Positions 16,604 through 37,874 of a DNA stretch of 64,000 nt are shown here, piece by piece. Source of the DNA: Gammaproteobacteria bacterium. GTDB lineage: Bacteria > Pseudomonadota > Gammaproteobacteria > Chromatiales > Chromatiaceae. The notes beneath the pieces are model-generated. The model made no database searches, was not told where the DNA came from, and saw only the letters and a list, made by a program, of their open reading frames with translations. Each line of letters opens with the position of its first letter. Position 1 is the stretch's first letter. The translations under genes and the position numbers were made by a program. The stretch covers positions 1 to 64,000 of the forward strand of contig WFXD01000062.1 of assembly GCA_015490795.1 (NCBI GenBank), read 5' to 3'.

Positions 16604-16665
16604 TGTCTCCTCCCCCATCGCATGGACTCCCCGGCACATCAACCAACCATTTTGGCTGCGGCAAT

Positions 16666-18825: not shown

Positions 18826-18846
18826 TACAATCCGTTAGCGCCTGAA

Positions 18847-18880
18847 CTCCGCCCCTTCTTCTTCGGGAGAAGGGGCGGAG
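18847..18880 (+). other. Strong hairpin after nosZ
   Basis: CTCCGCCCCTTCT at 18847-18859 pairs perfectly with AGAAGGGGCGGAG at 18868-18880 across an 8-base loop containing TTCG. No T-tract follows, so it is more likely an mRNA-stabilising 3' end or leaky attenuator than a full intrinsic terminator. A second, smaller hairpin follows at 18906-18927. Confidence 0.7.
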
Positions 18881-18905
18881 CCGCATTAGAATATCAGTAA
18901 ATACT

Positions 18906-18927
18906 AAAATTGCTGGGTAGCAATTTT
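18906..18927 (+). terminator. Possible intrinsic terminator in the nosZ-nosR gap
   Basis: AAAATTGCT (18906-18914) and AGCAATTTT (18919-18927) pair around a GGGT loop, and the 3' arm itself ends in TTTT. An outer pair ATACTAA (18901-18907) and TTAGTAT (18940-18946) could extend the structure. With the hairpin at 18847-18880 it would lower nosR expression relative to nosZ. The stem is AT-rich, so termination strength is doubtful. Confidence 0.4.
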
Positions 18928-19040
18928 CGTCAAATTCCCTTAGTATTCTGCTTGGTTAATTTGGGACTTGGCTCCCAGGAGCCTCTCCAGCTCATCGCTC
19001 AGGCAGGCTTATAAGTTATTTGAGACAGATTTCTACCCAC

Positions 19041-21278: not shown

Positions 21279-21361
21279 TCACCCTGCCACTATTTCACCG
21301 CCCAACTTCAAGATTCAATGGCCGCGCACTGCCGCGCAGCAAACCGATATTGCTTTCGGAG

Positions 21362-22699
21362 ATGGGGCCTGCCCCCGGTTTTTGGGCGCCCCTGTCCCGC
21401 TTCCGGTTTCTGCTTGACAAGAGACAGAGAGGCATTGCCTCATCTCTGTTGCTGCTCTTTGCCGCCACCACACCTGCGGCCGATCTTCAGGTTCCCAGCA
21501 GGCAGTTTCCCACCATCAGCAGCGCCATCAGCGCTGCCAATGATGGTGACAGCATCCATCTCGCCACTGGTGTTTTTCAAGAGAACATCACGCTTGATAA
21601 AGCGCTTACGCTACTTGGCAGCCCGGATAACAGATCCATTATCGACGGCTCAGGCAGCGGCACCGTTATTACCATAACCAGCCCAAATGCCCGTGTTTCC
21701 GGGGTGGCAGTGCGCAATAGCGGCGATATTATTGAAGATTCGGACGCCTGCATCTATGCCACGAAAGAGGCCACCAACATAAAGCTGGATGGCAACTCAC
21801 TCACTCAGTGCGCCTTTGGCATCTGGATCAATGGCAGCCACAATCCGGTGGTGATCAACAACACGGTTACAGGGTATCAAAAGAGGCTCATCTCTGACCG
21901 TGGAAACGGCATCCATATCTGGAACATTCAGAACGGGCTGATCAAAGAGAACCGGGTGTTCGGGGTTCGCGATGGCATCTATCTCTCAAACACCAGCCGA
22001 TCATCCATTGAAGACAATGTCATGGATTCAGTGCGCTTCGGCATCCACTATATGTATAACGACAACAACCGGGTTACCGGCAATACCACCTGCAACTCCA
22101 CGGTTGGGCAGGCCATGATGTTCTCAAAACGGCTGGTCATCAGCCATAATGCCATGATCAATAACAGAGACCACGGTATGCTGCTGCGCGCCATCTATGA
22201 CTCCAAAATCCATGGCAACATTGCCTATGGCAACAACAAGGGCATCTTCATCAACGACTCCGACTTCAATGAAATCACAGGCAACTGGGTTGAAGGAAAC
22301 GCCGTTGGCGTCGCAGTGATGGCTGGCGCTGAAAATACCCAGGTGGTTGGCAACAATTTTGTCTCAAACCCGGTGCAGGTGCTCTTCTCCTGGCGCTTTT
22401 CACTCTATTGGAACAATGAAGAGAGGGGCAACTACTGGAGCGATTATCTTGGCTGGGACTACGATGGTGATGGGATAGGTGACAGGATATACTACGCCTC
22501 AAATCGAATGGATCATCTGATGCATCGCCACCCAAAAATGAGGCTGCTTGCATTGAGTCCGGTGATTCAGCTTCTACAGGCCCTTGAGACCCGCTTTCCC
22601 GTACTGCGTTCAGCCAGCGTTATTGATAAAAAACCTGCTATGCACCCGACAACACCCATACCAGACCAGGTCACGGCTCCGGAAAAGGCATGTCTGTAA
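21362..22699 (+). CDS. nosD: NosD, periplasmic copper-site maturation protein
   Basis: A right-handed beta-helix protein of the NosD family. A signal peptide (RGIASSLLLLFAATTPAADL) is followed by FPTISSAISAANDGDSI and many degenerate 22-24 residue repeats with N-x-I/V-x-x-N turns (for example GNNKGIFINDSDFNEITGN). It helps NosFY assemble the CuZ centre. The start is uncertain. The ATG at 21362 is used, but a TTG at 21257 would extend the protein and overlap nosR. The 3' end overlaps nosF by 10 bp. Confidence 0.93.
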   Translation: MGPAPGFWAPLSRFRFLLDKRQRGIASSLLLLFAATTPAADLQVPSRQFPTISSAISAANDGDSIHLATGVFQENITLDKALTLLGSPDNRSIIDGSGSGTVITITSPNARVSGVAVRNSGDIIEDSDACIYATKEATNIKLDGNSLTQCAFGIWINGSHNPVVINNTVTGYQKRLISDRGNGIHIWNIQNGLIKENRVFGVRDGIYLSNTSRSSIEDNVMDSVRFGIHYMYNDNNRVTGNTTCNSTVGQAMMFSKRLVISHNAMINNRDHGMLLRAIYDSKIHGNIAYGNNKGIFINDSDFNEITGNWVEGNAVGVAVMAGAENTQVVGNNFVSNPVQVLFSWRFSLYWNNEERGNYWSDYLGWDYDGDGIGDRIYYASNRMDHLMHRHPKMRLLALSPVIQLLQALETRFPVLRSASVIDKKPAMHPTTPIPDQVTAPEKACL

Positions 22700-23685
22700 C
22701 CGCACCGTCACCCACCGTTATGACCAGCGCCGGAGCTACCAGCTCCGCGCAAGGGGCCGCGCCTATTCTCTCCCTCTCCGGGATAGGCAAGCATTTCCCC
22801 GGCAAAGAGGTGCTGAAATCCATTGACCTGCACATTGCACCCGGGCAGCTGATGGCGCTGGTTGGCAACAATGGTCAAGGCAAGACAACGCTGATGAAAC
22901 TGATCCTTGGCCTGCTTGCACCCGATGCAGGCAAGATCCTGATCAACGGAGAGACCGCCGGCACCAGCCGGTCAACCGCTCAAAAGGCTATCTTTGGCTA
23001 TCTACCCGAGACCACCGCTTTCTACCCCAACCTGACCGGTCAAGAGACATTACGCTACCTCTCATCACTCAAGCAGGGGGGAGAGACCAGAATCACCGAG
23101 GCGCTGGCAATTGTTGGCTTGGAACATGCTGCAAAACAGCGCATAAAGACCTACTCAAAAGGGATGAAACAGCGCCTTGGGCTGGCCCAGGCACTGCTTG
23201 GTGACCCAAAACTGCTGCTGCTCGATGAGCCTACAAACGGACTGGACCCTTCCGGTATTCATGAGTTCTATCAAATCCTAGGCCAGCTCAAAGCCCAAGG
23301 CGTTGCTATATTAATGTCCAGTCATCTGCTGGCGGAGATTGAACCCAGGTCAGACACCATCGCACTGCTTAAGGATGGCATCATCAGCGCGCATGGAACC
23401 GTTGATAAACTCATAAACGACGCTGAGCTGCCCAGCATTATTAAGTTTCAGAAAGGCCCCCGTTTTAACGAAGAAGCCCTGGACCAAATACTCCAGCAGC
23501 ACACCACAGAGAAGAGATACCTTGAGCAGTCAGGGCTCTTTGTGCTTACATGCCACCCTGTCCACAAGCAGGCACTGCTATTGGCGCTGCTCTCTGCTGA
23601 CAGGCTGGTTGGCAAACTTATCGTTAACGACCCTGGCCTTGAAGAGCTTTTTCTACAGCTAAACAGCGGCCTGAAAATAACCTGA
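22690..23685 (+). CDS. nosF: NosF, ABC transporter ATPase for NosZ maturation
   Basis: A 331-residue ABC ATPase. Walker A is NNGQGKTT; the degenerate signature region is KTYSKGMKQRLGLA, and Walker B is LLLLDEPTNGLDP. The Q-loop and H-loop (MSSHLL) are in place. The first about 20 residues are an unconserved Ser/Thr/Ala-rich extension. With NosY it forms the transporter thought to supply sulfur or an intermediate for CuZ. It overlaps nosD by 10 bp and precedes nosY by 13 bp. Confidence 0.95.
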   Translation: MSVTAPSPTVMTSAGATSSAQGAAPILSLSGIGKHFPGKEVLKSIDLHIAPGQLMALVGNNGQGKTTLMKLILGLLAPDAGKILINGETAGTSRSTAQKAIFGYLPETTAFYPNLTGQETLRYLSSLKQGGETRITEALAIVGLEHAAKQRIKTYSKGMKQRLGLAQALLGDPKLLLLDEPTNGLDPSGIHEFYQILGQLKAQGVAILMSSHLLAEIEPRSDTIALLKDGIISAHGTVDKLINDAELPSIIKFQKGPRFNEEALDQILQQHTTEKRYLEQSGLFVLTCHPVHKQALLLALLSADRLVGKLIVNDPGLEELFLQLNSGLKIT

Positions 23686-23698
23686 CAGCAGATCCTTA

Positions 23699-24514
23699 AT
23701 GTCTACCTCCACCATCTTGTTTGCCATAGCACGAAAAGAGTTCATTGACCATCTGCGCAACGGCTGGATCATTGCTGTTGGCCTGGCCTTTGCGGTCTTC
23801 TCACTCCTTATCACCTTTGCCGGCTTTGGGTTTACCGGCTCTGTCGGGGTTGGGCAGGAACAGGGTACGCTCTTCAGCCTAATCAACCTGGTGATCTACC
23901 TCGTTCCACTGCTTGGCCTGCTGCTAAGCTATGACGGGATAGCCGGTGAACACGAGCGCGGCACCCTTGACCTGTTAAGAAGCTATCCATTCAATACCGC
24001 TCTTTTGCTCTATGGCAAATGGCTTGGACTGTTTATGGTGCTTACTGCAACCCTGATTGTCGGATTAACTGCACCAGCAGCTATCTCTATATACAGCGGA
24101 CACACCCTGCAAGCCTGGACGCTGCTGCTTATAACCTCAGTATGGATTGGCGCCATCTTTATCTCCATCGCCATCATGTTTTCTGTTTTGATTCTGGATC
24201 GTGGAAAACTGATCGCCATCGCCATTGGCATCTGGCTGCTGTTTGTTGTGCTGTTTGATCTTGGCATTATCGGCATATTGGTCTCCACAGAGGGCAATGT
24301 TCCAATGAGCCTGGTTAATCTTCTCTTTTATCTGAACCCCACAGCACTCTATCGCCTTCTCTCTATTGACCTCATGATGGATGATGCGATGATCACGCAA
24401 CTCGGGTTAATGGGGCAGATCCCTCCAACACCTGCACTTTTTGCTGCCATTACGACCTGGACTATCATACCCACAGCCATTGCCGGATGGCGCATCAGCG
24501 CCTTAGGCAAATAG
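23699..24514 (+). CDS. nosY: NosY, ABC transporter permease for NosZ maturation
   Basis: A 271-residue membrane protein with about six TM segments (first at 22-47). The cytoplasmic loop GIAGEHERGTLDLLRSYP is typical of ABC-2 type permeases and of NosY. It partners NosF and NosD. It begins 13 bp after nosF and ends 14 bp before the nosL start, inside one operon. Confidence 0.94.
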   Translation: MSTSTILFAIARKEFIDHLRNGWIIAVGLAFAVFSLLITFAGFGFTGSVGVGQEQGTLFSLINLVIYLVPLLGLLLSYDGIAGEHERGTLDLLRSYPFNTALLLYGKWLGLFMVLTATLIVGLTAPAAISIYSGHTLQAWTLLLITSVWIGAIFISIAIMFSVLILDRGKLIAIAIGIWLLFVVLFDLGIIGILVSTEGNVPMSLVNLLFYLNPTALYRLLSIDLMMDDAMITQLGLMGQIPPTPALFAAITTWTIIPTAIAGWRISALGK

Positions 24515-24528
24515 AACTGGACCAAGAG

Positions 24529-25104
24529 ATGAACAGATACCCTCATGTTTTATTTTTATTACTGACCATGACGCTCTCCAGCGGCTGTAGTGAAGACAGC
24601 AATAACAACGCCACAATCTCCCCCAAGAATCTGACACGGGATGCCGTATGCATGCTGGATGGCATGATACTGCTTGATCACCCCGGCCCCAAGGGGCAGG
24701 TCATCTTCAAAAACGGTGAGTCACACTTTTTTTGTGATACTAAAGGACTATTCTCTGCGCTCTACGATCCCAACTACAAAATGAAAATCAAGCAGGCCTT
24801 TGTTCAGGATTTTGGCAAACGCAAATGGGGCAGCTATAATGATCGCTGGATTACTGTAGAGCAGGCCTTTTTTGTACTGGGCAGCAGCAAGCTTGGCGCT
24901 ATGGGACCTACCCTGGCCACGTTTAGCGTCCGCGCTGATGCCGATAACTTCGCAAAAGAGTTTGGCGGTTCAGTGCTGGCCTTTAACGAACTCGATGAAG
25001 AGAAGTTTGAAGCCTATCAGACACACATCCGCCAACAGCTGCGAGACACCATGAGCGATACTTCAGCCCCTGATAGCAGCGAGGCGGTGCATCAGCATCA
25101 CTAG
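24529..25104 (+). CDS. nosL: NosL, outer-face copper chaperone lipoprotein
   Basis: About 191 residues from the ATG at 24529. This start puts the lipobox LSSGC at the end of a normal signal peptide; the upstream in-frame start at 24487 would bury it. NosL signatures include RDAVCMLDGMILLDHPGPKG, FKNGESHFFCDTKG and the later AFFVLGSSKLGAMGP. It delivers Cu(I) to apo-NosZ. The C-terminus ends HQHH, a possible metal ligand. Its TAG stop (25102-25104) is formed by the first bases of the inverted repeat of the element at 25100-25294, so the native C-terminus may have been altered by that insertion. Confidence 0.93.
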   Translation: MNRYPHVLFLLLTMTLSSGCSEDSNNNATISPKNLTRDAVCMLDGMILLDHPGPKGQVIFKNGESHFFCDTKGLFSALYDPNYKMKIKQAFVQDFGKRKWGSYNDRWITVEQAFFVLGSSKLGAMGPTLATFSVRADADNFAKEFGGSVLAFNELDEEKFEAYQTHIRQQLRDTMSDTSAPDSSEAVHQHH

Positions 25105-25885: not shown

Positions 25886-26941
25886 CTACTCACCATTTGC
25901 CTGGGCCTTGGAAGCCATCGTCAGCTGTTGCAATACAAAGAGCGCCGCAGTGAAGAGCAAAAGCCCCCCTCCCTGATGAGCTGAGGCCAAAGGTATAGGG
26001 ACGTGCAGCAACAGAGTCGAAATACCCAGTGTAACCTGAAGCAGCAGCGCCCCAAGCAGGAGGTTCATCCCCAGACGCACCCTCGAACTTAGTTCAAATT
26101 GTCTTGAGCGCCACCAGAGTATCGGAATCAGAAAAAACAGCAGCGTTGCCAAAACGCGATGATCGAACTGGACTGTTGCAATATTTTCAAAAAAATTCCT
26201 CCATAGCGGAGCAAGCCGAAAAATGCCCTCCGGTATAATCTGGCCATTCATCAACGGAAAGGTATTATAGGCAAACCCGGCCTTTAATCCTGCAACAAAG
26301 CCGCCTGACAGCAGCGTAATAAAAATCAAGCCGGTAACGATACGGGAGAACCCCAAAACCTGTCTGGCATCGCCGAAAGAGCGCTCCGGTTCGCGCTTGA
26401 AGAAGAGTCCCAGCGCCACCCAGAATATATAGCCATAAACCAGCACCGCCAGCCCAAAATGCGCAGTTAAACGATATTGGCTTACCTGCGGGTTATCAAC
26501 CAGTCCGCTTTTCACCATGTACCACCCCAGCAGCCCTTGCAACCCACCCAGCACAAACATTGCAACCAGTTTGGGCGTGAGCTTGCGGCTGACCTGGCGT
26601 GTGGCGATAAAAAAGAGCATGGGAAGGAGGAAGAGTATACCAATAAGCCGCCCCAGGATACGATGCAGATACTCAAACCAGAAAATGGACTTGAACTCCT
26701 CCAGATTGAAATGGGAGTTTACCTTCTTATACTGCGGCGAATGCTGATACAGCTCAAAGACCGCATTCCACTCCACCTGGTTCATTGGCGGAAGCACGCC
26801 CGTAATCGGCTCCCACTTCACCATAGAAAGCCCGGAGCCTGTCAGGCGCGTGACGCCTCCGAGTATAACCATGGCAAAGATTGTGACACAACAGACAAAT
26901 AACCAGATCGCAACAGGTCGCTGGTTTGTGGTAGATTTCAT
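25886..26941 (-). CDS. ctaA: Haem A synthase (CtaA/COX15 family)
   Basis: About 351 residues from the ATG at 26941 (MKSTTNQRPVAIWLF), chosen because it places TM1 at the N-terminus; the track start upstream adds 13 polar residues. Eight TM helices. Family motifs are GGVTRLTGSGLSMVKWEPITG, FKSIFWFEYLHRILGR (haem His), RLTAHFGLAVLVYG, FDHRVLA and ASAHQGGG. It converts haem O to haem A. With the haem O synthase at 30051-30911 it supplies the haem for the divergently encoded oxidase-like enzyme at 27413-29922. Confidence 0.93.
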   Translation of the reverse strand: MKSTTNQRPVAIWLFVCCVTIFAMVILGGVTRLTGSGLSMVKWEPITGVLPPMNQVEWNAVFELYQHSPQYKKVNSHFNLEEFKSIFWFEYLHRILGRLIGILFLLPMLFFIATRQVSRKLTPKLVAMFVLGGLQGLLGWYMVKSGLVDNPQVSQYRLTAHFGLAVLVYGYIFWVALGLFFKREPERSFGDARQVLGFSRIVTGLIFITLLSGGFVAGLKAGFAYNTFPLMNGQIIPEGIFRLAPLWRNFFENIATVQFDHRVLATLLFFLIPILWWRSRQFELSSRVRLGMNLLLGALLLQVTLGISTLLLHVPIPLASAHQGGGLLLFTAALFVLQQLTMASKAQANGE

Positions 26942-27067
26942 GGCTTCTGCTCTGCCCTCGAGACCGGGCTTAAATAACAAAGACCGGCGATATTACCAAA
27001 TAGATCCCCAATGGCAAACAGCCACCTGAAAAGTTGACATAAAAAGCGGGTTAAAATCTGCGACAAA

Positions 27068-27081
27068 TTGACACAGATCAA
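27068..27081. promoter_or_regulatory. FNR/DNR-like palindrome between ctaA and the oxidase-like operon
   Basis: TTGACACAGATCAA (TTGAC-N4-ATCAA) matches the FNR/DNR class at all but one position. It lies 126 bp upstream of ctaA and 331 bp upstream of the small subunit gene at 27413, and could serve either. It is the only site recognised in the 471-bp gap 26942-27412. Its presence in front of an oxidase-like operon suggests expression at low oxygen or in NO, not under full aeration. Confidence 0.6.
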
Positions 27082-27636: not shown

Positions 27637-28179
27637 ATGACTTCATTTTTGCCTCCAGCCCAGAAGAACTGGTGGGCCGTGCCGGTGGGTCGCCAGGAGA
27701 TCATCTGGATTGCAATTGCGCTGGTTTGGTGCCTGATTATGTTTTTCATGATGCCTCTATGGCATGTGTATGGTAACCAGAACATCGCTAACGAAGCGTA
27801 CAAGGTCACACCGGCCAAGTACCAAGCAAAAGTTAACGAGATGATCGAAAAGTACAAGGTTCGCGAAGAGACCGCCATGAAAATACCCGTGGTCGCACCG
27901 CCTGATGGCGCCGATGTCTACCTGCTGGCGCGCCTTTGGCAGTGGTACCCAATGCTGGAACTCAAAAAAGACGTAACCTATCGTCTTCACCTGAACTCCA
28001 TCGACTGGAACCATGGCTTTTCCTTGCAGCCTGTCAATATCAATATTCAGGTCGTCCCGGGCTACGAAATGGTCCTGAACATAACGCCTAACAAAGCAGG
28101 TGAGTACACGATTGTCTGTAATGAATATTGCGGCATCATGCACCACAGCATGCTGGGCAAGATCTGGGTGAAGGAGTAA
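27637..28179 (+). CDS. CuA-containing subunit II of a B-family haem-copper oxidoreductase
   Basis: A 180-residue protein with one TM helix (about residues 21-41), then a periplasmic cupredoxin domain. The CuA ligands are all present: His126 (WNHGF), Cys161 and Cys165 in CNEYCGIMHHSM, His169 and Met172. It accepts electrons from a periplasmic cytochrome c or cupredoxin and feeds subunit I. A spacer of about 50 residues between helix and cupredoxin (ANEAYKVTPAKYQAKVNEMI) is predicted helical. Followed 6 bp later by subunit I. In an NO reductase reading, this is the CuA subunit seen in NorSY-type enzymes. Confidence 0.9.
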   Translation: MTSFLPPAQKNWWAVPVGRQEIIWIAIALVWCLIMFFMMPLWHVYGNQNIANEAYKVTPAKYQAKVNEMIEKYKVREETAMKIPVVAPPDGADVYLLARLWQWYPMLELKKDVTYRLHLNSIDWNHGFSLQPVNINIQVVPGYEMVLNITPNKAGEYTIVCNEYCGIMHHSMLGKIWVKE

Positions 28180-28185
28180 TTAAAA

Positions 28186-29922
28186 ATGGCACAATTTAGA
28201 CAATGTCCTGATACCGGACTGTTTTTCCACAAAGAAGCAGAAAACCTGATGAAGGCTAACGCCGTCGCAGGTGTTGTATGCCTGCTGATTGCCGGCATCC
28301 TCGCTCTGCTGGTTGTTCTGACTCGCTGGCCTGCTGTCCACCTGCTGCCGGCTGACACCTTCTACATGGTACTGACTGCCCACGGTGTTTGCGCACTGAT
28401 TTTCTGGGTAATCTTCTTCGAGATAGCCATCCTCTACTTTGCGGGCTCTACCCTGCTGCGCAGCAGGCTGGCAACGCCCCGCTGGGCATGGGCTGGCTTT
28501 GTACTGATGATTGTCGGCGCTGTCATGACAATGGCCGCAATCTTCGCCGGCAAGTCCAGCGTGATGATGACCTCGTACGTGCCTATGCGTGCAGAACCGC
28601 ACTTCTATCTGGGTCTGGTTATCTTCGCTGTTGGCGCACTGATCGGCTGCTTTGTATATCTTGGCACCCTGGTTGTTGCAAAGAACGAGAAGACCTATGA
28701 AGGCTCTGTACCACTGGTCACCTTTGGTGCCACGGTAGCCTGCATCATCGCTATCTTTACCATAGCCTCTGGTGCTGAGATCCTGATCCCGACCTATCTG
28801 TGGTCTATTGGCTACATCAGCCATATTGATCCAGCCATGTACCGGCTCATCTGGTGGGCACTGGGTCACTCTTCACAACAGATCAACGTCTCTGCTCACG
28901 TAGCCGTCTGGTATCTTATCGCTGGTGTTATTTTTGGCGCTCGCCCAATGTCGGAGAAGGTCAGCCGAGCAGCATATCTGCTCTACATCTTCTTCCTGCA
29001 GTTGGCCTCTGCCCACCACCTGTTAACAGATCCAGGCCTCAGCGTCGAATGGAAACTCTTCAACACCTCATACGCCATGTATCTGGCTGTGCTGGCTTCC
29101 ATGATCCACGGCCTGACCGTTCCTGGTGCCATCGAGGTGGCTCAACGCAAGAAAGGGCTGACCAATGGCGCTTTTGAATGGCTGCGTAAAGCCCCCTGGG
29201 ATAACCCGGTCTTCTCCAGTATGTTTATCTCCCTGGTAGGCTTTGGCTTCCTTGGCGGTATCTCTGGTGTGGTCATGGGTACCGAGCAGATCAGCATCAT
29301 CATCCACAACACCATCTATGTGCCAGGCCACTTCCACGCTACAGTGGTAATCGGCACTACCATGGCATGGATGGGGTTGACCTACTTGTTGATCCCAGTG
29401 CTGTTCCGCCGCAAGATGATCATGCCGCAGGCAGCTAAACTACAGCCGTACGTCTTCGCACTGGGCATGTCTCTGGTCGCCATTTTCCACATGGCAGCCG
29501 GCACCCTGGGTGTTGCACGTCGCCACTGGGACATGGGCTTTGCAGGCAATCCGCTGGGCTTTGAATACCCGGCTACGGCCTACCTGCTGATGGGCATTGC
29601 CGGTGTTGGTGGTGTCATCGCTGTGGTTGGTGGCGCCATGTTCATCGTCATCGCCGTTGGCTCACTGGTGTTCGGTGAAAAGCTGCAGAAAGAGGCAGGG
29701 CTTTTGCAGAGCTTTGGATTTCCTCTTGCTGATTCAGCCTACACGGATGAAAAACCTGCACGCCTGCCTATGGCTCCATCCGAGGCTGTAGAGGCACACC
29801 ACGATGAATCCAGCTTTGAGGCTCCGGGAACCTTTATCCTGGCTATGGTCTTGCTGGTAAGCTTCGTGATCTACTACTTCATCAACTGGAAGTATCTGTC
29901 TGAAGTTTGGGGCCTCTCTTAA
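28186..29922 (+). CDS. Haem-copper oxidoreductase subunit I, B-family-like; candidate NO reductase (NorSY/sNOR type)
   Basis: A 578-residue membrane protein. His66 (TAHGV) and His384 are candidate low-spin haem ligands, His382 (VPGHFHA) the active-site haem ligand, and His228, His277 and His278 (AHHLLTDPG) the CuB/FeB ligands. HHLLTDPG and HNTIYVPGHFH are B-family (ba3-like) signatures. In ba3 the helix VI motif is GHPIVY, whose Tyr is cross-linked to the CuB His. Here it is GHSSQQ, so Gln232 stands where Tyr should be. Loss of this Tyr is expected in NO reductases, which do not need four-electron O2 chemistry. The following SenC gene and nearby nos genes fit that reading. An oxygen reductase is not excluded. 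Confidence 0.85.
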   Translation: MAQFRQCPDTGLFFHKEAENLMKANAVAGVVCLLIAGILALLVVLTRWPAVHLLPADTFYMVLTAHGVCALIFWVIFFEIAILYFAGSTLLRSRLATPRWAWAGFVLMIVGAVMTMAAIFAGKSSVMMTSYVPMRAEPHFYLGLVIFAVGALIGCFVYLGTLVVAKNEKTYEGSVPLVTFGATVACIIAIFTIASGAEILIPTYLWSIGYISHIDPAMYRLIWWALGHSSQQINVSAHVAVWYLIAGVIFGARPMSEKVSRAAYLLYIFFLQLASAHHLLTDPGLSVEWKLFNTSYAMYLAVLASMIHGLTVPGAIEVAQRKKGLTNGAFEWLRKAPWDNPVFSSMFISLVGFGFLGGISGVVMGTEQISIIIHNTIYVPGHFHATVVIGTTMAWMGLTYLLIPVLFRRKMIMPQAAKLQPYVFALGMSLVAIFHMAAGTLGVARRHWDMGFAGNPLGFEYPATAYLLMGIAGVGGVIAVVGGAMFIVIAVGSLVFGEKLQKEAGLLQSFGFPLADSAYTDEKPARLPMAPSEAVEAHHDESSFEAPGTFILAMVLLVSFVIYYFINWKYLSEVWGLS

Positions 29923-30050: not shown

Positions 30051-30911
30051 ATGGTCAAGCAACTTATTAACCTACTAAAACTACGTATCGGCATTGTTAT
30101 GTCCGTTACTGCCGTTGTTGCAATGACCGTTACCCCAGGCCAGCCTGTGACAGGCTGGGAAGTAGTGATCCTCGCTTTGACGGTTCTTATTGCTGCTGGT
30201 GGGGCAGGCGCATTCAATCAGTATTATGAGATTGATCTCGATATTAAAATGAAGCGGACGCAAGGGCGCCCATTCATAAACGGGTATTTTCAACACAACC
30301 GCACCTGGCTATTTTTTATCTCTGGCCTGGTGCTGGCCGGAGTAGCTGGTGCCGGTTTTGCACTAAACGGGTTGACCGCCCTGTTCATATTCCTTGGCGC
30401 CTTTTTCTACGCCATTGTATATACTGTCTTACTCAAGCGCCGGACATGGCTCAACATCGTTATCGGTGGGGCGTCCGGAAGCTTTGCTGTACTGGCTGGA
30501 GCAGCCGTAGCCGACCCAAGTGGTATCGGCCCCATCCCGGCGCTGCTCGCCGTTGTCCTTTTCCTTTGGACTCCTTCACATTTTTGGAGTTTGGCCATTG
30601 CCCAGCATGATGATTATGCCGCTGCTGGTGTGCCTATGCTCCCTGTTGTCGTTGGCGACCAAACCGCTGCCAAAGCCGTGCTTTTCAATACACTCGCCTT
30701 GGTAACTGTATCCATACTGCCATTCTTCTTTGGGCTGAGCTGGATCTATCTTTTTGGTGCCGTGGCTGGTGGCGGCTATTTCATCTATCGCAATATTCAG
30801 CTTGTAAATGACCCATCACGCAAAGTGGCAATGAGCAGCTTCTTTGCATCGCTTGTGCAGCTTGGCCTCTTGTTGGTTTGCGCCACTATTGATGTCAGCC
30901 TGCTAGGCTGA
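30051..30911 (+). CDS. ctaB: Haem O synthase (protohaem IX farnesyltransferase)
   Basis: A 286-residue UbiA-superfamily prenyltransferase with about eight TM helices. The first Asp-rich motif NQYYEIDLDIKMKRTQGRP (about residues 62-80) binds the farnesyl diphosphate with magnesium, and FFYAIVYTVLLKRRT and LWTPSHFWSLAIAQHDDYA are family signatures. It makes haem O, the substrate of CtaA (25886-26941). The start ATG is at 30051. The 296-bp gap after it (30912-31207) holds no recognisable gene or site. Confidence 0.95.
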   Translation: MVKQLINLLKLRIGIVMSVTAVVAMTVTPGQPVTGWEVVILALTVLIAAGGAGAFNQYYEIDLDIKMKRTQGRPFINGYFQHNRTWLFFISGLVLAGVAGAGFALNGLTALFIFLGAFFYAIVYTVLLKRRTWLNIVIGGASGSFAVLAGAAVADPSGIGPIPALLAVVLFLWTPSHFWSLAIAQHDDYAAAGVPMLPVVVGDQTAAKAVLFNTLALVTVSILPFFFGLSWIYLFGAVAGGGYFIYRNIQLVNDPSRKVAMSSFFASLVQLGLLLVCATIDVSLLG

Positions 30912-31207: not shown

Positions 31208-32053
31208 ATGCAATCTATAAAATTTTTCACTGGTGCGCTTTTTCTTGCGCTGACTCTTTTGGCCTCAGCCCAGGCAGAGCCACCAACAATCACCCCACAG
31301 CCCGGCACCTCAACCCAGGATGCTTCCGGGTTTGACTACAAAGAGGCATTGAAAACCAGCCAGCAGGCCATTGGTAACAGGCTCAGTAACCACCGGTTCA
31401 TGTCCAGCACGGGCGGCGTGCTGTTCATGGAAGAGCTAAAAGGCAAACCGCTCGTCATCAGCCTGATCTACACCAGTTGCTTTCACACCTGTCCGATGAC
31501 CACCCGCAATCTCGCCAAGGTTGTCGCAAAAGCCAAAGATGCTTTGGGAGATCAATCCTTTAACGTTGCCCTCATTGGTTTTGATGTCGAGAATGATACA
31601 CCTAGTGCAATGCGCTACTTTGGGCGCCAAAATGATATTGATGGTAATGACTGGAAATTACTCAGCACAGACCAGGCGACCAGGGATCTACTCATAAAAG
31701 AGCTGGGGTTCATCTATTTCCCCTCAATACGCGGGTTCGACCATCTGGTGCAATCCACAGTGGTTGACGCTGACGGTACTGTTTACCGGCAGGTATATGG
31801 AGAGGTAATCGATACGCCGCTCCTCGTAGAACCCCTAAAAGACCTCGTATTTGGGCGCCCCTCATCTGCGCAAACATTCATTGGTGATATGGTGAACAGG
31901 GTAAAGCTCTTTTGCACCACTTATGACCCGGTTCGAGACACTTATATTTTTGACTACTCTCTGTTTATTGGAATTTTCGCTGGTTTGTCCGTAATCATCT
32001 TCGTGCTGATCTTCATCATACGTGAATGGAAGCGCACCGGGCGGCAGCGGTAA
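31208..32053 (+). CDS. SCO1/SenC-family copper chaperone with a C-terminal membrane anchor
   Basis: A 281-residue protein. Signal peptide about 1-23 (ASAQAEPP). The thioredoxin-like domain has the copper/redox motif TSCFHTCPMTTRNL (two Cys) and the distal His in RGFDHLVQS. Unlike most SCO proteins it ends in a TM helix (YSLFIGIFAGLSVIIFVLIF) and a short basic tail, so it may be anchored at both or only its C-terminal end. SCO proteins load or reduce CuA. Its place after the CuA enzyme and haem O synthase matches SenC in NorSY-SenC clusters as I know them. A second SCO gene is at 37230-37874. Confidence 0.93.
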   Translation: MQSIKFFTGALFLALTLLASAQAEPPTITPQPGTSTQDASGFDYKEALKTSQQAIGNRLSNHRFMSSTGGVLFMEELKGKPLVISLIYTSCFHTCPMTTRNLAKVVAKAKDALGDQSFNVALIGFDVENDTPSAMRYFGRQNDIDGNDWKLLSTDQATRDLLIKELGFIYFPSIRGFDHLVQSTVVDADGTVYRQVYGEVIDTPLLVEPLKDLVFGRPSSAQTFIGDMVNRVKLFCTTYDPVRDTYIFDYSLFIGIFAGLSVIIFVLIFIIREWKRTGRQR

Positions 32054-32130: not shown

Positions 32131-32383
32131 TCAGCATCATGAAACGGTAACTCACCAACATCCTTTTCGATAGCCACGTAAAGAATCCGAGCTAAAACCC
32201 AAGCAATGCTTTCCAATTTCAAGGCATGGAGCACTGGAGACCGTGCAGGCCTGATGGAAATCAATGACGAATCCGTCAGCGGATGGTAGTATGGCTAGCG
32301 TTAAACCCAACTGAATTAGTCAACATTAATTTAACTGCATATTTGCCCTCTAAATTCGTGCCGATACCGCGAGGATCAGACAA

Positions 32384-33952
32384 TTGAAATTAAGTGCTAA
32401 CCCCATTAAACGCGGCTACCTCTATCTGGAAGAGTGGTTTAACCTCTCCTTTGGGAAAGAGTGGAACCCCCTCTACCACCTTGGGCCACTCACCTTCTTT
32501 TTCTTTTGGATAGCGCTCATTTCCGGCCTCTATCTCTATATCTTCTTCAATACTACAGTTGACCAGGCTCATGCATCGCTTGAAGCCATTGTTCATGGGC
32601 ATGTGCTTGGAATTGGCAGCCTTATGCGCAGTCTGCATCGATATGCCTCTGATGCGGCTATTATAACCATCATGCTGCATGTATTTAGAGAGTTCTCACT
32701 GGATCGCTACCGAGGTACACGCTGGTACTCCTGGTTTACCGGCATCCCCACTCTCTGGATGGTTGTGCTTCTTGGTATAACAGGTTACTGGATGGTATGG
32801 GATGAGCTGGCGCTGTATGTATCAATGGGCGCTTCTCACCTGCTGGATGCCCTGCCTATCTTCTCTGACTCAATGGCTCGAAACTTTTTGCCTGGCAATC
32901 TGAGCGACCGCTTCTCTACGCTTCTGGCCTTTTTGCACCTGCTTGGGCAGCCCATGTTTTTAATCTTTATGCTCTGGTTCCATGTTAGACGCCTGACTCA
33001 CGTTGAAGTCACTGCACCAAAAGGGCTGGCCATAGGTTGCCTTATTGCATTGACGGCACTCTCCATCTATATGCCTGCTCTCAGCCATCCCCCGGTCAAC
33101 CTTTCAAAGGTGCCCACGGAGATCCACCTGGATTGGTTTTACCTGAATATCTTTCCTCTATTGCAGTATTGGTCCCCTGGTGAGATCTGGCTGCTGGTCG
33201 CTGGTGTTACTACCTTTATGCTATTCATGCCATGGCTGCCTAAAAAGAATGAGGGCATCCCGGCAATCGTTGATTTGGAGCACTGTAATGGCTGTGCCCA
33301 ATGCGTTGTCGACTGTCCCTTTGATGCGATCAGCCTGCAGGCCCGTACCGATGGTGCCAAATGGGAAAATGAGGTCATCGTGCAGCCCGAGCTATGTGCT
33401 GCCTGCGGTATCTGCACCGGCTCATGCCCATCTTCCAGCCCATTCCGCAAAATGACCGAAGATGGCAGCCTGAAGACCGGCATCGACATGCCGGAGCTGC
33501 CTCTGGATAAATTTAAGCAACAGACCGATGATGCTCTGGCTAAACTGGCTGGCGACAACAGGATCATAGTCTTTGGCTGCGGGCATGGTTACGATATTGA
33601 TGCTTTCAGTGCGCCCAATGTGGCCACTGTGCATCTCTTTTGCACCGGCATGATGCCCGCCTCCCTTGCTGAGTATGCCCTCAAAAACGGGGCCGACGGG
33701 GTCGTTGTTTCCGGCTGCCGCTCTGGCGACTGTTACTACCGGTTCGGCAACCACTGGCTGGATCTCAGAATACAGGGCAAGCGAATGCCGGCGATTCGAT
33801 CCAGAGTGGACAAGGAGCGGATCAAGATCCTTGGAGGTGCAGAGATTGACGGCAAAAAACTGCACAAGCAGCTTGACCTCTTTCGCCAGTCTCTTGTGCA
33901 AAAAACAGCCACACCCTCCGTGACTACAGCCAAGGAGGTGAACCATGACTAG
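32384..33952 (+). CDS. Cytochrome b6 / 2x[4Fe-4S] ferredoxin / MvhD-like fusion protein
   Basis: A 522-residue fusion. Residues 1-285 are a cytochrome b6-like membrane domain with two haem b pairs, His85/His99 (14 apart) and His186/His201 (15 apart, the b6 spacing). Residues 298-352 are a two-cluster ferredoxin: Cys302/305/308/312 and Cys339/342/345/349. Residues 393-500 resemble MvhD, the iron-sulfur subunit linking hydrogenase and heterodisulfide reductase (IIVFGCGHG, FCTGMMP, GADGVVVSGCRSGDCYYRFGN). The start is TTG with GAGGA about 8 bases upstream. The protein could move electrons between a cytoplasmic carrier and quinone or haem. It overlaps the next gene by 8 bp. No hydrogenase or Hdr gene is in the window. 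Confidence 0.88.
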   Translation: MKLSANPIKRGYLYLEEWFNLSFGKEWNPLYHLGPLTFFFFWIALISGLYLYIFFNTTVDQAHASLEAIVHGHVLGIGSLMRSLHRYASDAAIITIMLHVFREFSLDRYRGTRWYSWFTGIPTLWMVVLLGITGYWMVWDELALYVSMGASHLLDALPIFSDSMARNFLPGNLSDRFSTLLAFLHLLGQPMFLIFMLWFHVRRLTHVEVTAPKGLAIGCLIALTALSIYMPALSHPPVNLSKVPTEIHLDWFYLNIFPLLQYWSPGEIWLLVAGVTTFMLFMPWLPKKNEGIPAIVDLEHCNGCAQCVVDCPFDAISLQARTDGAKWENEVIVQPELCAACGICTGSCPSSSPFRKMTEDGSLKTGIDMPELPLDKFKQQTDDALAKLAGDNRIIVFGCGHGYDIDAFSAPNVATVHLFCTGMMPASLAEYALKNGADGVVVSGCRSGDCYYRFGNHWLDLRIQGKRMPAIRSRVDKERIKILGGAEIDGKKLHKQLDLFRQSLVQKTATPSVTTAKEVNHD

Positions 33953-34454
33953 CCGTCCAGCAGTTCGCTATCTTTTACAGGCCTTTAACCTGACTATTTT
34001 TATGGCACTGATTGCTGCATTTTCCGCTGGCCCTACCGTCAAACAGCTTGAAGATGGCCTGGCTGTTGTTACGCTGGCTTTTGGGCATGCCGGTGAACCT
34101 GTGCGTGCCTGCCATGTACGAACCGCTGAGGAGCTGGCAGCATTGGCGCCCAATATGCGGGCACCACTGGACTGCCCCAGGGAACGCTCTGTCATTAAGG
34201 TTGAGCTTTTAATGGATGGCAAAACCATCCTTGATCTCACCATCCCTCCCCCAGGGACATTCAAGGATCAAGGTGTGGATGTTTACCAGAATGTCGAGGT
34301 GCCCGTGGGTCGGCATGAGTTCACGGTGCGAATGAATGATAATGCATTGGTAGATGGCTATACCTACACCAATAGCTATACGGCAGATCTGGCACCTGCC
34401 CAGCTTCTTTTTATTGATTTCAATCAGCGGATTGGCGGATTTACCTTTAATTAA
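33945..34454 (+). CDS. Unknown membrane-anchored periplasmic protein of the cytochrome b6-fusion operon
   Basis: A 169-residue protein I do not recognise. One hydrophobic segment at about residues 9-29 (LLQAFNLTIFMALIAAFSAG) acts as signal or anchor. The rest is predicted beta-rich and periplasmic. Cys56 (RACHVR) and Cys77 (LDCPRE) could form a disulfide or bind metal. The ending LLFIDFNQRIGGFTFN is notable. It overlaps the b6 fusion by 8 bp, and its stop directly abuts the ATG of the haem-copper-like gene at 34455. The three genes are therefore tightly coupled and probably form one complex. Confidence 0.75.
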   Translation: MTSRPAVRYLLQAFNLTIFMALIAAFSAGPTVKQLEDGLAVVTLAFGHAGEPVRACHVRTAEELAALAPNMRAPLDCPRERSVIKVELLMDGKTILDLTIPPPGTFKDQGVDVYQNVEVPVGRHEFTVRMNDNALVDGYTYTNSYTADLAPAQLLFIDFNQRIGGFTFN

Positions 34455-35822
34455 ATGGCTGAATATTTTTCTCTTGACGTGTCGGCGGATCGCACGATCC
34501 GTCGGCAAACCACCGCATGGCTTATCCTGGCCCTTGCCTCATTGGTCATTGGCGGCCTGTTTGTCGTCCTCATCGTGCTCTCCCGAACGCCAGGCATTCA
34601 AGATATCATTCCCTGGGTAGACTTCTTCAAGACCGCCCTCGTGATACATGTCGATATGACTGTACTGGTCTGGTTTCTCGCCTTTGCAGGCCTCTTTTGG
34701 AGCCTGAACAATAATGGCAACTGCGTTGCCTGCGGTTGGCCGGCAATCTTTCTGGCAGCTCTGGGCATGCTTGGAATTGCTGCATCACCATTCCTTGGGG
34801 CCGGAAAACCGCTGATGAACAACTATGTTCCGGTGCTGCAAGACCCTATATTTTTTACGGCTCTGGGCATCTTTGGGCTGGGCTTTACACTGCAGATTTT
34901 GAATGGACTGATCCACTCCAGAGCTGTGGGCAGGTTCATGGATGGCAATGCCGCACTCCGCTTCGGACTCTACACCGCACTGGTTGCTGCACTTATCGCC
35001 ATGATGTCAATCGGCTGGTCATACAGCATGATGCCAGCAGAGATAGAGGGGCAGCGCTACTATGAGCTGCTGTTCTGGGGCGGCGGCCACGTCATCCAGT
35101 TTACACATACCCAGCTAATGCTTGCAGTCTGGTTGTGGTTGGCAAGCGTCTCTGGCATTGCCATCAAAGCCAACCCGCGCTTGATTCTCATACTCTTTGC
35201 ATTGGGCGCAATGCCTGTCCTGTTTGCACCTCTCATCTATCTTGCCTACCCGGTAGATAACCCAGGTTACGCCATTAGCTTTACCTGGCTCATGAAATAC
35301 GGCGGCGGCCTCGCCGCACTGCCCCTTGGACTTATACTTATCACCTCCATTTTCAGCAGTGACAAACCCGCTGACCTGTACCGTGCCGAGCGCTCGGCAT
35401 TGATCTTCTCCATACTGCTGTTTGGCACAGGCGGGATCATCGGGTTTATGATTACAGGCAGTAATGTACGCGTCCCCGCCCACTACCATGGCTCGATCAT
35501 TGGCGTCACCATGGCATTTATGGGCATCACCTATTATCTCTTGCCGCGCCTGGGTTTTCGCAAGCCTATGGGGAAATGGGCGCTACGGCAGCCCGCTATT
35601 TATGGCACGGGACAGATGATCTGGGTACTCGCCATGGCCTATACCGGCGGGCACGGCGTTCAGCGCAAGACAGCAGGCGCCGCTCAAGGGCTGAAGTCCA
35701 TGGGCGAACATATCGCCATGGCGCTAATGGGGATCGGCGGGATCATCGCCATCACTGGCGGAATAATCTATCTGGTTGTGGTCTATAAGGCCATGCGCCC
35801 TGAGAAGAGGCTGACTACTTAA
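34455..35822 (+). CDS. Haem-copper oxidoreductase-like subunit I with an incomplete CuB site
   Basis: A 455-residue protein with about 12 TM helices. His65 (VIHVDMTV) and His343/His345 (RVPAHYHGSIIGVT) are in the positions of the haem ligands. Helix VI has FWGGGHVIQFTHT: His212 aligns with the first CuB ligand and Phe216 with the cross-linked Tyr, with an extra His218. In helix VII, where all known oxidases and NO reductases have His-His, the sequence is IYLAYPVDNPG, so two CuB ligands are missing. A GGHGVQRK motif occurs near residue 400, as in cbb3/NOR-like proteins. It may be a cytochrome b electron conduit, a reductase with altered metal site, or an NO-binding protein. Confidence 0.8.
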   Translation: MAEYFSLDVSADRTIRRQTTAWLILALASLVIGGLFVVLIVLSRTPGIQDIIPWVDFFKTALVIHVDMTVLVWFLAFAGLFWSLNNNGNCVACGWPAIFLAALGMLGIAASPFLGAGKPLMNNYVPVLQDPIFFTALGIFGLGFTLQILNGLIHSRAVGRFMDGNAALRFGLYTALVAALIAMMSIGWSYSMMPAEIEGQRYYELLFWGGGHVIQFTHTQLMLAVWLWLASVSGIAIKANPRLILILFALGAMPVLFAPLIYLAYPVDNPGYAISFTWLMKYGGGLAALPLGLILITSIFSSDKPADLYRAERSALIFSILLFGTGGIIGFMITGSNVRVPAHYHGSIIGVTMAFMGITYYLLPRLGFRKPMGKWALRQPAIYGTGQMIWVLAMAYTGGHGVQRKTAGAAQGLKSMGEHIAMALMGIGGIIAITGGIIYLVVVYKAMRPEKRLTT

Positions 35823-35845: not shown

Positions 35846-35875
35846 AGGGCCATGTAGAGGTGCATGGCCCTTTTT
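35846..35875. terminator. Intrinsic terminator between convergent genes
   Basis: AGGGCCATG (35846-35854) pairs with CATGGCCCT (35863-35871) and is followed by TTTT on the plus strand. It ends the operon 32384-35822; the next gene (35880-36176) converges on it. Confidence 0.8.
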
Positions 35876-35879
35876 CATG

Positions 35880-36176
35880 CTAATCAACCGGAGGCAGTGC
35901 GGGTGACCGCAGGGGCTCTGGCATTGGTGACCCGGGTATTGGCTCAACCATTGATTCAGACTGTTCCATCGCAGCAGGCCCACTGGGCAGAACATCAGTA
36001 AAAAAGTGCTGAATAGCTTCAAATGTTGTCACAGAAAGTATCATAATAATCATAAAAAAGACGATACTCCTGCTGACAAAAGGCTTTCCCCGCCATTTCT
36101 CCAGTCCAATCAATATCCGGTCTGAGACCACATAAAGCACAATCGCAGTCACTGTATACATAAGCATTTGCTGCAT
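35880..36176 (-). CDS. Small membrane protein of unknown function
   Basis: A 98-residue protein with two hydrophobic segments (about residues 5-22 and 35-56). It ends in a Pro/Met/Glu-rich tail (SMVEPIPGSPMPEPLRSP) that is probably disordered. I recognise no family. It follows the DUF420 gene by 93 bp on the same strand, and converges with the haem-copper-like gene. A role in assembly or stability of the neighbouring respiratory proteins is only a guess from position. Confidence 0.55.
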   Translation of the reverse strand: MQQMLMYTVTAIVLYVVSDRILIGLEKWRGKPFVSRSIVFFMIIMILSVTTFEAIQHFFTDVLPSGPAAMEQSESMVEPIPGSPMPEPLRSPALPPVD

Positions 36177-36269: not shown

Positions 36270-36710
36270 TTACGACAGACCGACCTGGGGTGGATAGAGA
36301 TGAAAAGCCATGAGATAGATAACAACACCGCTCACGCAAACATAGATCCAGAGTGGAAAGGTCCACCTGGCAATGCGCCTGTGGCGTTCATAGCGGCCTC
36401 TCAATGCGAGAAATGCCGTGCCGATCACCATTGGCACAATGAGTGCGGCAAGGATGATATGAGAGGCAAGAATTGTAAAATAGAAGGGACGCACCCCGCC
36501 AACTCCCGCAAATTTCACATTACCCACCTGGCTGTGATAGGTCAGATATGAAACCATGAACAGCGCCGACACCACCAATGCTGCCACCATAAACTGTCGA
36601 TGCACCCTGTGGTTTTCCCGACGAATATTGTAGTAGGCGATACTGATCAGGCAAACTGTTGTGATATTCAGCCCCGCCTGTAGATGAGGCAATACCGGGA
36701 TAATCTCCAC
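36270..36710 (-). CDS. DUF420 (CtaM-like) membrane protein
   Basis: A 146-residue protein with four TM helices. Conserved polar motifs are HLQAGLNITTV, RRENHRVHRQFM, TYHSQVG, RPFYFTILASHIILAALIVP and RIARWTFPLW. These match the DUF420 family, whose Bacillus member CtaM is required for haem-copper oxidase assembly. Translation starts with GTG, overlapping the TAG stop of the gene at 36710-37060 by one base (TAGTG). The gene is convergent with the haem-copper-like operon and suggests that one of the two local haem-copper proteins needs it. Confidence 0.88.
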   Translation of the reverse strand: MEIIPVLPHLQAGLNITTVCLISIAYYNIRRENHRVHRQFMVAALVVSALFMVSYLTYHSQVGNVKFAGVGGVRPFYFTILASHIILAALIVPMVIGTAFLALRGRYERHRRIARWTFPLWIYVCVSGVVIYLMAFHLYPPQVGLS

Positions 36711-37060
36711 TAGCTGCTCTCGCTTTTGCCATCCAAAGTCGGCTTGGGAGCCACCTTATGTTTCTTCCACTCTTTCCACAGCAGCGCAAAAAATACCGTT
36801 ATCAAGGTCAGGTTTACTACAATGCCGCCAATTACAATCCCCGTCATCTCTCGTGGGTTATCAAAAGATAACAGCCACTTTTTCTCTTCCACCTTTACAT
36901 CACTCGCTGGCGCACCTGCCAGCCCGGGTTGCTCTGCGCTGCCGGCGATACTGGGCAGATCCGCCTCCCCCCACGCCGGTGAGCAGGCCGCTAAAAGGAT
37001 GATAGCAAAGAGCAGTTGCTGGCAAAGTGATTTAAAAGGCAAGTCGATAACACGATGCAT
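36710..37060 (-). CDS. Membrane-anchored periplasmic protein of unknown function
   Basis: A 116-residue protein. An N-terminal signal peptide (LLFAIILLAACSPAWG, with a possible lipobox LAAC) is followed by an Ala/Pro-rich stretch, KKWLLSFDNPREM, and a TM helix at about 74-95 (IVIGGIVVNLTLITVFFALLW). The end is a basic cytoplasmic tail. I do not recognise a family. It is coupled to the DUF420 gene by a TAGTG overlap. Topology resembles small assembly factors of cytochrome oxidases, but that is inference. Confidence 0.65.
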   Translation of the reverse strand: MHRVIDLPFKSLCQQLLFAIILLAACSPAWGEADLPSIAGSAEQPGLAGAPASDVKVEEKKWLLSFDNPREMTGIVIGGIVVNLTLITVFFALLWKEWKKHKVAPKPTLDGKSESS

Positions 37061-37229: not shown

Positions 37230-37874
37230 TCAACCCCGCAATTTTAGAATCCCCAAATACTGCTCGGTAATCACTTTGGGGTTGTGAGGCGGAGAAAATG
37301 CACCGTGCACGCGCTGTTTGGGACCGATCAGGTAGATCGAGCCTGTATGACTGACCTGATAACTGCCACCCTCTTCAGGCTCCTCTCTGATATAACCTGC
37401 GCTCATCTGTTTGGCCAGCCCATCAACTGCCTTAACCGGGCCAGTCACGCCAATAAAATTCTTGTCAAAATAGGCTGCATATTCAGCTACATGCTCTGGT
37501 GAGTCACGCTCTGGATCGACAGAGACAAATACCACCTGGGTTTTTGCCTGGATCTGTGGATATTCAGCCAGGTCATCATAGACCGCTTTCATAACAGAAA
37601 GCGCCATTGGGCAGACATCCGGGCAGCTGGTATAGCCAAAAAATAGCAGAGTCCATCTATCTTCCAGGCGTGACAGATCTAACGCCTTCCCTCCCGCCTC
37701 AGGCAATTCGAAAGATGTCAGTTGCCGAGGTTCAGGCCAAAGCACCGCCTGCAACTCTGCTGGCACTACCTCTTTTGGCGGTGCCTTTAATAAAAAAACG
37801 GATGCAAACAGCAGCGCTATAATGCCAATGCCAATCAAGGCCTTCATTGGGCTGTTTTTAGATTCAGAACTCAT
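37230..37874 (-). CDS. SCO1/SenC-family protein (second copy)
   Basis: A 214-residue protein. An N-terminal anchor at about 10-27 is followed by a thioredoxin-like domain with FFGYTSCPDVCPMALS (two copper/redox Cys) and the His in VSHTGSIYLIG. This is the classic SCO arrangement (about 200 residues, N-terminal anchor only), unlike the copy at 31208-32053. In the same orientation as the DUF420 set downstream, so it probably takes part in haem-copper enzyme assembly. Having two different SCO proteins fits the presence of two different haem-copper-like subunits. Confidence 0.93.
   Translation of the reverse strand: MSSESKNSPMKALIGIGIIALLFASVFLLKAPPKEVVPAELQAVLWPEPRQLTSFELPEAGGKALDLSRLEDRWTLLFFGYTSCPDVCPMALSVMKAVYDDLAEYPQIQAKTQVVFVSVDPERDSPEHVAEYAAYFDKNFIGVTGPVKAVDGLAKQMSAGYIREEPEEGGSYQVSHTGSIYLIGPKQRVHGAFSPPHNPKVITEQYLGILKLRG

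Follow-up and report, generated by a model that had tools for sequence, protein, structure and literature searches.

Gene content of the locus

We analysed a 64,000-nucleotide stretch of DNA from a gammaproteobacterium assigned to the Chromatiaceae (assembly GCA_015490795.1, contig WFXD01000062.1, positions 1 to 64,000; hereafter the window), in which three consecutive genes on the forward strand, here called A, B and C, had been read in an initial annotation as a candidate respiratory complex. Genes A and B share 8 bp, and the TAA stop codon of B is followed immediately by the ATG of C, which bears out the tight coupling described there. The three genes lie directly downstream of norS, norY, cyoE and SCO genes, and the norS/norY and A-B-C cluster is placed between nos genes (nosZ, nosD and nosL, at 16957-25104) and nar genes (Table 1). 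The initial annotation overlooked the upstream nitric oxide (NO) reductase genes, the homology of A to bc-type cytochrome b, an FNR-type box before A and a hairpin after C.

Table 1. Features of the cluster, with positions in the window
Feature	Position	Strand	Basis
A: cytochrome b + 2x[4Fe-4S] ferredoxin + FlpD/MvhD-like domain	32384..33952	+	Pfam, invariant ligands, AlphaFold2 (AF2) model, Foldseek, PetD alignment; TTG start
B: predicted membrane-anchored periplasmic beta-sandwich protein, A's constant partner	33945..34454	+	linkage, fusions, model, conservation
C: paralogue of eNOR subunit I, haem-copper oxidase-like and CuB-less	34455..35822	+	haem ligands present, helix VII HH absent
norS-like, putative CuA subunit II of eNOR	27637..28179	+	CxExCxxxHxxM in 54/56 homologues
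norY-like, putative catalytic subunit I of eNOR	28186..29922	+	GHSSQQ with Gln at crosslinked-Tyr position, HH, HxH
cyoE-type haem O synthase	30051..30911	+	TIGR01473 above cut-off
SCO1/SenC copper chaperone	31208..32053	+	domain search
CtaA/COX15 haem A synthase, divergent from norS	25886..26980	-	
FNR/NnrR-type box TTGACACAGATCAA in ctaA-norS divergent region, before norS	27068..27081	+	
FNR/NnrR-type box CTGATGGAAATCAA preceding A by about 120 bp	32251..32264	+	
Terminator-like hairpin ending the A-B-C unit	35846..35871	+	11-bp stem, then TTTTT
Small membrane protein, recurrent neighbour	35880..36176	-	
DUF420 membrane protein, recurrent neighbour	36270..36710	-	
Small secreted/membrane protein, recurrent neighbour	36710..37060	-	
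Second SCO1/SenC protein, recurrent neighbour	37230..37874	-	

A putative eNOR-type nitric oxide reductase upstream of the three genes

Helix VI of NorY reads GHSSQQ, with Gln at the position of the crosslinked Tyr in 54 of 54 homologues. The helix VI His, the helix VII HH and the helix X HxH are all present, the CuB and haem ligands being intact in nearly all homologues, and the gene for a CuA subunit II, NorS, adjoins that for subunit I. The published criterion for eNOR is Gln in place of this Tyr, whereas sNOR has Asn (PMC8756737), and eNOR has been characterised biochemically as a B-family-related NO reductase with a CuA subunit II (PMC11388526). Taken together, the Gln substitution, the intact CuB and haem ligands and the adjoining CuA subunit lead us to assign NorS and NorY, from their sequences, to a putative eNOR-type reductase that would convert NO to nitrous oxide (N2O); an assignment to sNOR was rejected on the basis of Gln versus Asn.

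The closest PDB matches of NorY are ba3-type oxidases, and databases annotate norSY-type genes as cytochrome oxidase. Both facts would suit an oxygen reductase or another haem-copper oxidase (HCO), with the gene set serving O2 respiration, but we consider this extremely unlikely given the replacement of Tyr in every homologue and the position of the cluster between nos and nar. Family searches of the window's own genome (99% complete), on which all statements about its gene content rest, found only three COX1-family genes, namely CcoN of a cbb3 oxidase, NorY and C, along with nar, nosZ and four cytochrome d1-domain proteins. NorS/NorY would thus be the sole HCO-type NO reductase candidate of an otherwise complete denitrification pathway; no other HCO-type candidate was found, flavodiiron and other NO reductases being outside the search. 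The cytochrome d1-domain proteins are four separate ones, encoded on contigs C48 and C107 (L074-L077).

FNR-type boxes (TTGAT-N4-ATCAA, at most 1 mismatch) number ten in the window, where 3.4 would be expected; none of 100 shuffles contained so many. Besides the boxes before norS and A, one precedes nosZ (16888). A perfect box, TTGATCGGCATCAA, lies at 15813-15826, inside reading frame 15191-16642 and well upstream of nosZ.

Protein A joins a bc-type cytochrome b to Fe-S and FlpD domains

Protein A consists of a cytochrome b part (residues 1-290), a ferredoxin (294-352) and an FlpD/MvhD-like domain (399-504). As the initial annotation had it, Cytochrome_B, Fer4 and FlpD domains are present, all above Pfam cut-offs. 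The cytochrome b part has six transmembrane (TM) helices, two b haems and L-D-W-F-Y at the PEWY position. Across 18 homologues, with identity down to about 30%, the four haem-b His (85, 99, 185 and 200), the eight [4Fe-4S] Cys (301-348) and C399, C420 and C445 never vary, and C450 hardly does, which indicates that the cofactor sites are under selection rather than matched by chance. The ferredoxin and FlpD arrangement is also aligned by NF040770 (residues 288-505), with a score below its cut-off.

The AF2 model of A (predicted local distance difference test score, pLDDT, 86) matches bc1 cytochrome b in Foldseek (E 1e-8), with agreement up to helix F that takes in the cd1 and ef elements, and profile comparison gives the same match over the same range. 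With a profile of residues 175-290, (L/I)-D-W-F-Y falls on the P-E-W-Y of PetD (1vf5_B, E 2e-5); this motif is nearly invariant in the A proteins of Proteobacteria and Nitrospinota, and degenerate in those of Gemmatimonadota.

A Qo-type reaction at A is therefore possible on the strength of fold and motif, and would be central to quinol bifurcation, in which a bc1-like A would oxidise quinol at a Qo-like site and pass one electron on to NO via CuA and the second, by way of its haems and Fe-S clusters, to ferredoxin, NAD+ or Hdr, with NO reduction driving the uphill step. The cytochrome b fold, the near-invariant D-W-F-Y and the exchange of cytosolic modules at the NAD(P)H level (see below) are all compatible with such a scheme. 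However, no Rieske or cytochrome c1/f gene was found among the annotated genes of the cluster, the PEWY motif is changed, and more so in Gemmatimonadota, and electron transfer from NAD(P)H to NO is strongly downhill, so that bifurcation is not required. We regard bifurcation as unlikely, and as rather improbable the more specific proposal that a Rieske-less bc-type cytochrome b and eNOR make up a quinone-based bifurcating NO reductase, in which NO reduction would pay for low-potential reductant (reduced ferredoxin or NAD(P)H) in autotrophic denitrifiers.

Additional copies of A were also observed. The same genome encodes a second A, 52% identical, on contig C101 (L069:7072-8715) without B, C or eNOR and preceded by a cyclic-nucleotide-binding/rhodanese protein, and two A genes stand side by side in genomes G397, G462 and G487 (family f190) and in locus L035.

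Protein B is the constant partner of A

B matches no Pfam or NCBIfam family. Its model (pLDDT 91), a TM helix (residues 5-27) plus a beta sandwich, matches nothing among PDB folds at E<0.001, and Cys56 and Cys77 are conserved. A recognisable B adjoins 56 of the 64 copies of A in the locus set, in which some stretches are duplicated, and the two proteins are naturally fused in one open reading frame (ORF) in L047 and L083/L068. If the topology of bc1 is assumed, the model has A ending in the cytoplasm after its six TM helices, and the TM helix at the start of B runs on into the periplasm; this arrangement is consistent with the A-B fusions. Identification of B as a cytochrome c or a known copper protein was rejected, there being no CxxCH in the fusions, no family and no fold match. 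In two unrelated lineages a hemerythrin-family gene was seen beside A-B (L048:17523-17927 and L062:6335-6727).

Protein C is probably an accessory paralogue of NorY

The COX1 match of C is just above the Pfam cut-off. The helix II His, helix VI His and helix X HxH are kept, while the helix VII HH, which supplies two of the three CuB ligands, is absent in 39 of 39 C-family sequences. The haem-copper-like subunit with a changed metal site of the initial annotation is thus upheld: C retains the haem ligands and lacks two of the three CuB His of a catalytic HCO or NO reductase. The loss of the CuB ligands led us to reject C as a nitric oxide dismutase or a catalytic NO reductase. In the tree all C proteins form one clade (100/100) on a long stem beside subunit I, apart from the aa3 and cbb3 rows, with some outgroup branches long and their placement weak. 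A PDB sequence search with C gave no match, and a plasmid search found none.

C occurs in 19 eNOR/A genomes of the class sample described below, and 10 of the 29 C-positive genomes have neither A nor eNOR. Lone C genes adjoin haem O/A synthase (cyoE, ctaA), SCO, aa3 oxidase or heavy-metal ATPase genes in several of the loci L013, L051 and L053-L060 (L013, L051, L057, L058 and L059 by name), and a sigma factor gene in L053 and L056. Judged by its sequence, C is a NorY paralogue that has lost CuB, and it probably has an accessory or assembly role instead of a catalytic one; the C proteins make up a second conserved HCO family.

A and B co-occur with eNOR across several phyla

Among 274 genomes of the class, A is found in 24, NorY in 23 and both in 22 (Fisher P 4e-29); among 249 genomes of the phylum the corresponding numbers are 32, 29 and 28 (Fisher P 1e-31). 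In the loci inspected, copies of norY and C were read from direct hidden Markov model tables, since greedy ORF lists miss some in high-GC loci where longer antisense ORFs win. In at least two of the exceptions in the class survey (G264 and G215) the contig ends near the junction.

More telling than these P values is the wider phylogenetic spread. The order norS-norY-cyoE-SCO-A-B-C recurs in the gammaproteobacterial loci L004 and L006-L010, with variants that lack a detected cyoE (L012) or have wider gaps (L014). In other orientations, A adjoins norSY in Gemmatimonadota (usually divergently), in Nitrospinota, in a deltaproteobacterium and on an alphaproteobacterial plasmid. Copies of A-B that lie apart from eNOR frequently have nirS and haem d1 genes in their vicinity (L078, L081, L082 and L062).

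The conserved unit is A and B, not A-B-C. Conservation outside this genome, a condition set by the initial annotation, is confirmed, but for A and B with eNOR: C is missing from the A loci of Gemmatimonadota and Nitrospinota and, as noted, can stand alone, so the three-gene set does not hold as a unit. The membrane complex first proposed survives as a group of conserved respiratory genes that would link cytoplasmic Fe-S carriers across the membrane to quinol or the periplasmic side. Its free-standing character, with an unnamed acceptor, does not survive, as A and B track adjacent norS/norY in 22/24 and 28/32 A-positive genomes through rearranged gene orders. An independent complex of A, B and C running from Hdr or ferredoxin to a periplasmic acceptor is accordingly very unlikely: the tight A-B-C spacing in close relatives and an HdrA-MvhD-FrhB-like cluster elsewhere in the genome would agree with it, but C is no obligate partner of A, no Hdr or hydrogenase was recognised beside A in the loci screened, and the partner upstream in the cluster is eNOR.

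Exchange of the cytosolic domains

The strongest clue to function is a domain swap. The cytochrome b module of A, D-W-F motif included, is fused to Fer2-FAD-NAD in L085, L129, L131, L132 and L134, and to flavodoxin-FAD-NAD (a diflavin reductase) within the gene cluster of L084. The order in L129 is norS-norY-cyoE-SCO-[cytb-Fer2-FAD-NAD]-B-C-A, and the fusion gene has an 8-bp overlap with B, the same arrangement as between A and B in the window. Operon evidence for the swap comes from L129 (Fer2 form) and L084 (diflavin form), the other Fer2 fusions lying away from eNOR. The swap suggests electron exchange between the cytosolic part and carriers at the NAD(P)H level, and ties B to the cytochrome b part.

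Cytochrome b-Fer2-FAD-NAD fusions away from eNOR were observed in L085 and L130-L134; in L085, L130 and L134, NiFe-hydrogenase-like or hydrogenase-maturation genes were seen by eye a few kb off.

The link to sHdr or hydrogenase drawn in the initial annotation did not hold up, since a screen of the loci, made by eye and by homology to known parts and short of exhaustive annotation, recognised neither a hydrogenase nor an Hdr gene next to A, and the A slot can hold a cytochrome b-NAD(P)H reductase fusion. Hydrogenase and sHdr were accordingly rejected as partners of A, the Hdr-like cluster of the genome having its own MvhD. That cluster (HdrA-MvhD-FrhB-like/Hdr, with a stand-alone MvhD) lies at L070:3897-11208 on contig C27.

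A proposed electron path to NO

We propose, with a probability of roughly 60%, that A and B are a dedicated transmembrane electron-transfer module of an eNOR-type NO reductase, connecting cytosolic carriers at the NAD(P)H or Fe-S level with NO. The Fe-S/FlpD domain of A would exchange electrons with a soluble low-potential partner (at the NAD(P)H, ferredoxin or Hdr level), the two b haems of A would pass them through the membrane to its periplasmic side, B may arrange contact there with the CuA subunit NorS, and NorY would reduce NO to N2O; quinol exchange at the cytochrome b of A would be optional.

Sequence establishes the anatomy, the cofactor ligands, the gene linkage, the co-occurrence, the domain swap and the A-B fusions; an actual complex, electron flow from the cytosol towards the NO reductase, the nature of the soluble partner and the functions of B and C are inferred. 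It should be noted that several observations weigh against this proposal. The survey P values are overstated, because the class and phylum samples share some genomes, many positives are close relatives (in the phylum sample a single family supplies about half of the eNOR genomes) and phylogeny was left uncorrected. A is evidently not needed for every eNOR, since eNOR occurs without A nearby on plasmids of Thermus (L049) and Thermomicrobium (L050), in Gemmatimonadota (L040) and in G333. Likewise, A occurs without a detected eNOR in a few genomes, and the window's own genome has the orphan paralogue (L069).

Such orphans, and copies of A near nirS rather than norSY, could also be expected if A and B were a stand-alone cytosolic-donor:quinone reductase that merely shares the regulon of eNOR, the latter being fed by cytochrome c as usual. 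A cytochrome b can carry a Qi site, and FNR-type boxes are common to both. This reading, however, leaves B and the operon position unexplained and is at odds with the near one-to-one co-occurrence of A and eNOR in several phyla; we think it improbable.

To our knowledge, no physiological electron donor has been established for eNOR, a widespread producer of N2O. A near one-to-one partner with swappable cytosolic reductase domains makes the question of its donor directly testable. The proposed module suggests that NO reduction may be wired to NAD(P)H or ferredoxin, potentially bypassing bc1 and cytochrome c, and A-B could serve as a marker helping to separate eNOR from the oxidases as which it is annotated.

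Comparison with known systems

eNOR itself is already known, and the novelty claimed here for its A-B module is provisional, because the literature searched, in which no description of a cytochrome b-FlpD-NO reductase system was found, did not include the primary eNOR paper (Murali 2024). The sNOR of ammonia oxidisers has the gene order norSY-senC-orf1. The present cluster resembles it in the order of CuA subunit, HCO subunit and SCO genes, and differs in the Gln of NorY, where sNOR has Asn (PMC8756737). One table entry, given without interpretation (RME88945.1; PMC8756737 Table A3), has cytochrome b6, Fe-S and FlpD in one ORF as A does, together with a cytochrome c (C1) domain not shared by A.

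With the cytochrome b of bc1 and b6f, A has in common the fold through helix F, the four haem ligands and a motif at the PEWY position; it differs in reading (L/I)DWFY there, in its cytosolic Fe-S/FlpD extension and in the lack of a Rieske or c1/f gene in the cluster. The ferredoxin and FlpD arrangement, including an FlpD with cluster Cys, is that of MvhD/FlpD and the HdrA2 C-terminus, whereas in A the FlpD domain is fused to cytochrome b, with no hydrogenase or HdrA recognised beside it. The closest likeness of NorS and NorY is to eNOR, with which they share Gln at the Tyr position, the CuB and haem ligands, the CuA subunit II and nearby CyoE and SCO genes, and to which the present cluster adds the cytochrome b/Fe-S/FlpD and B module and the CuB-less paralogue.

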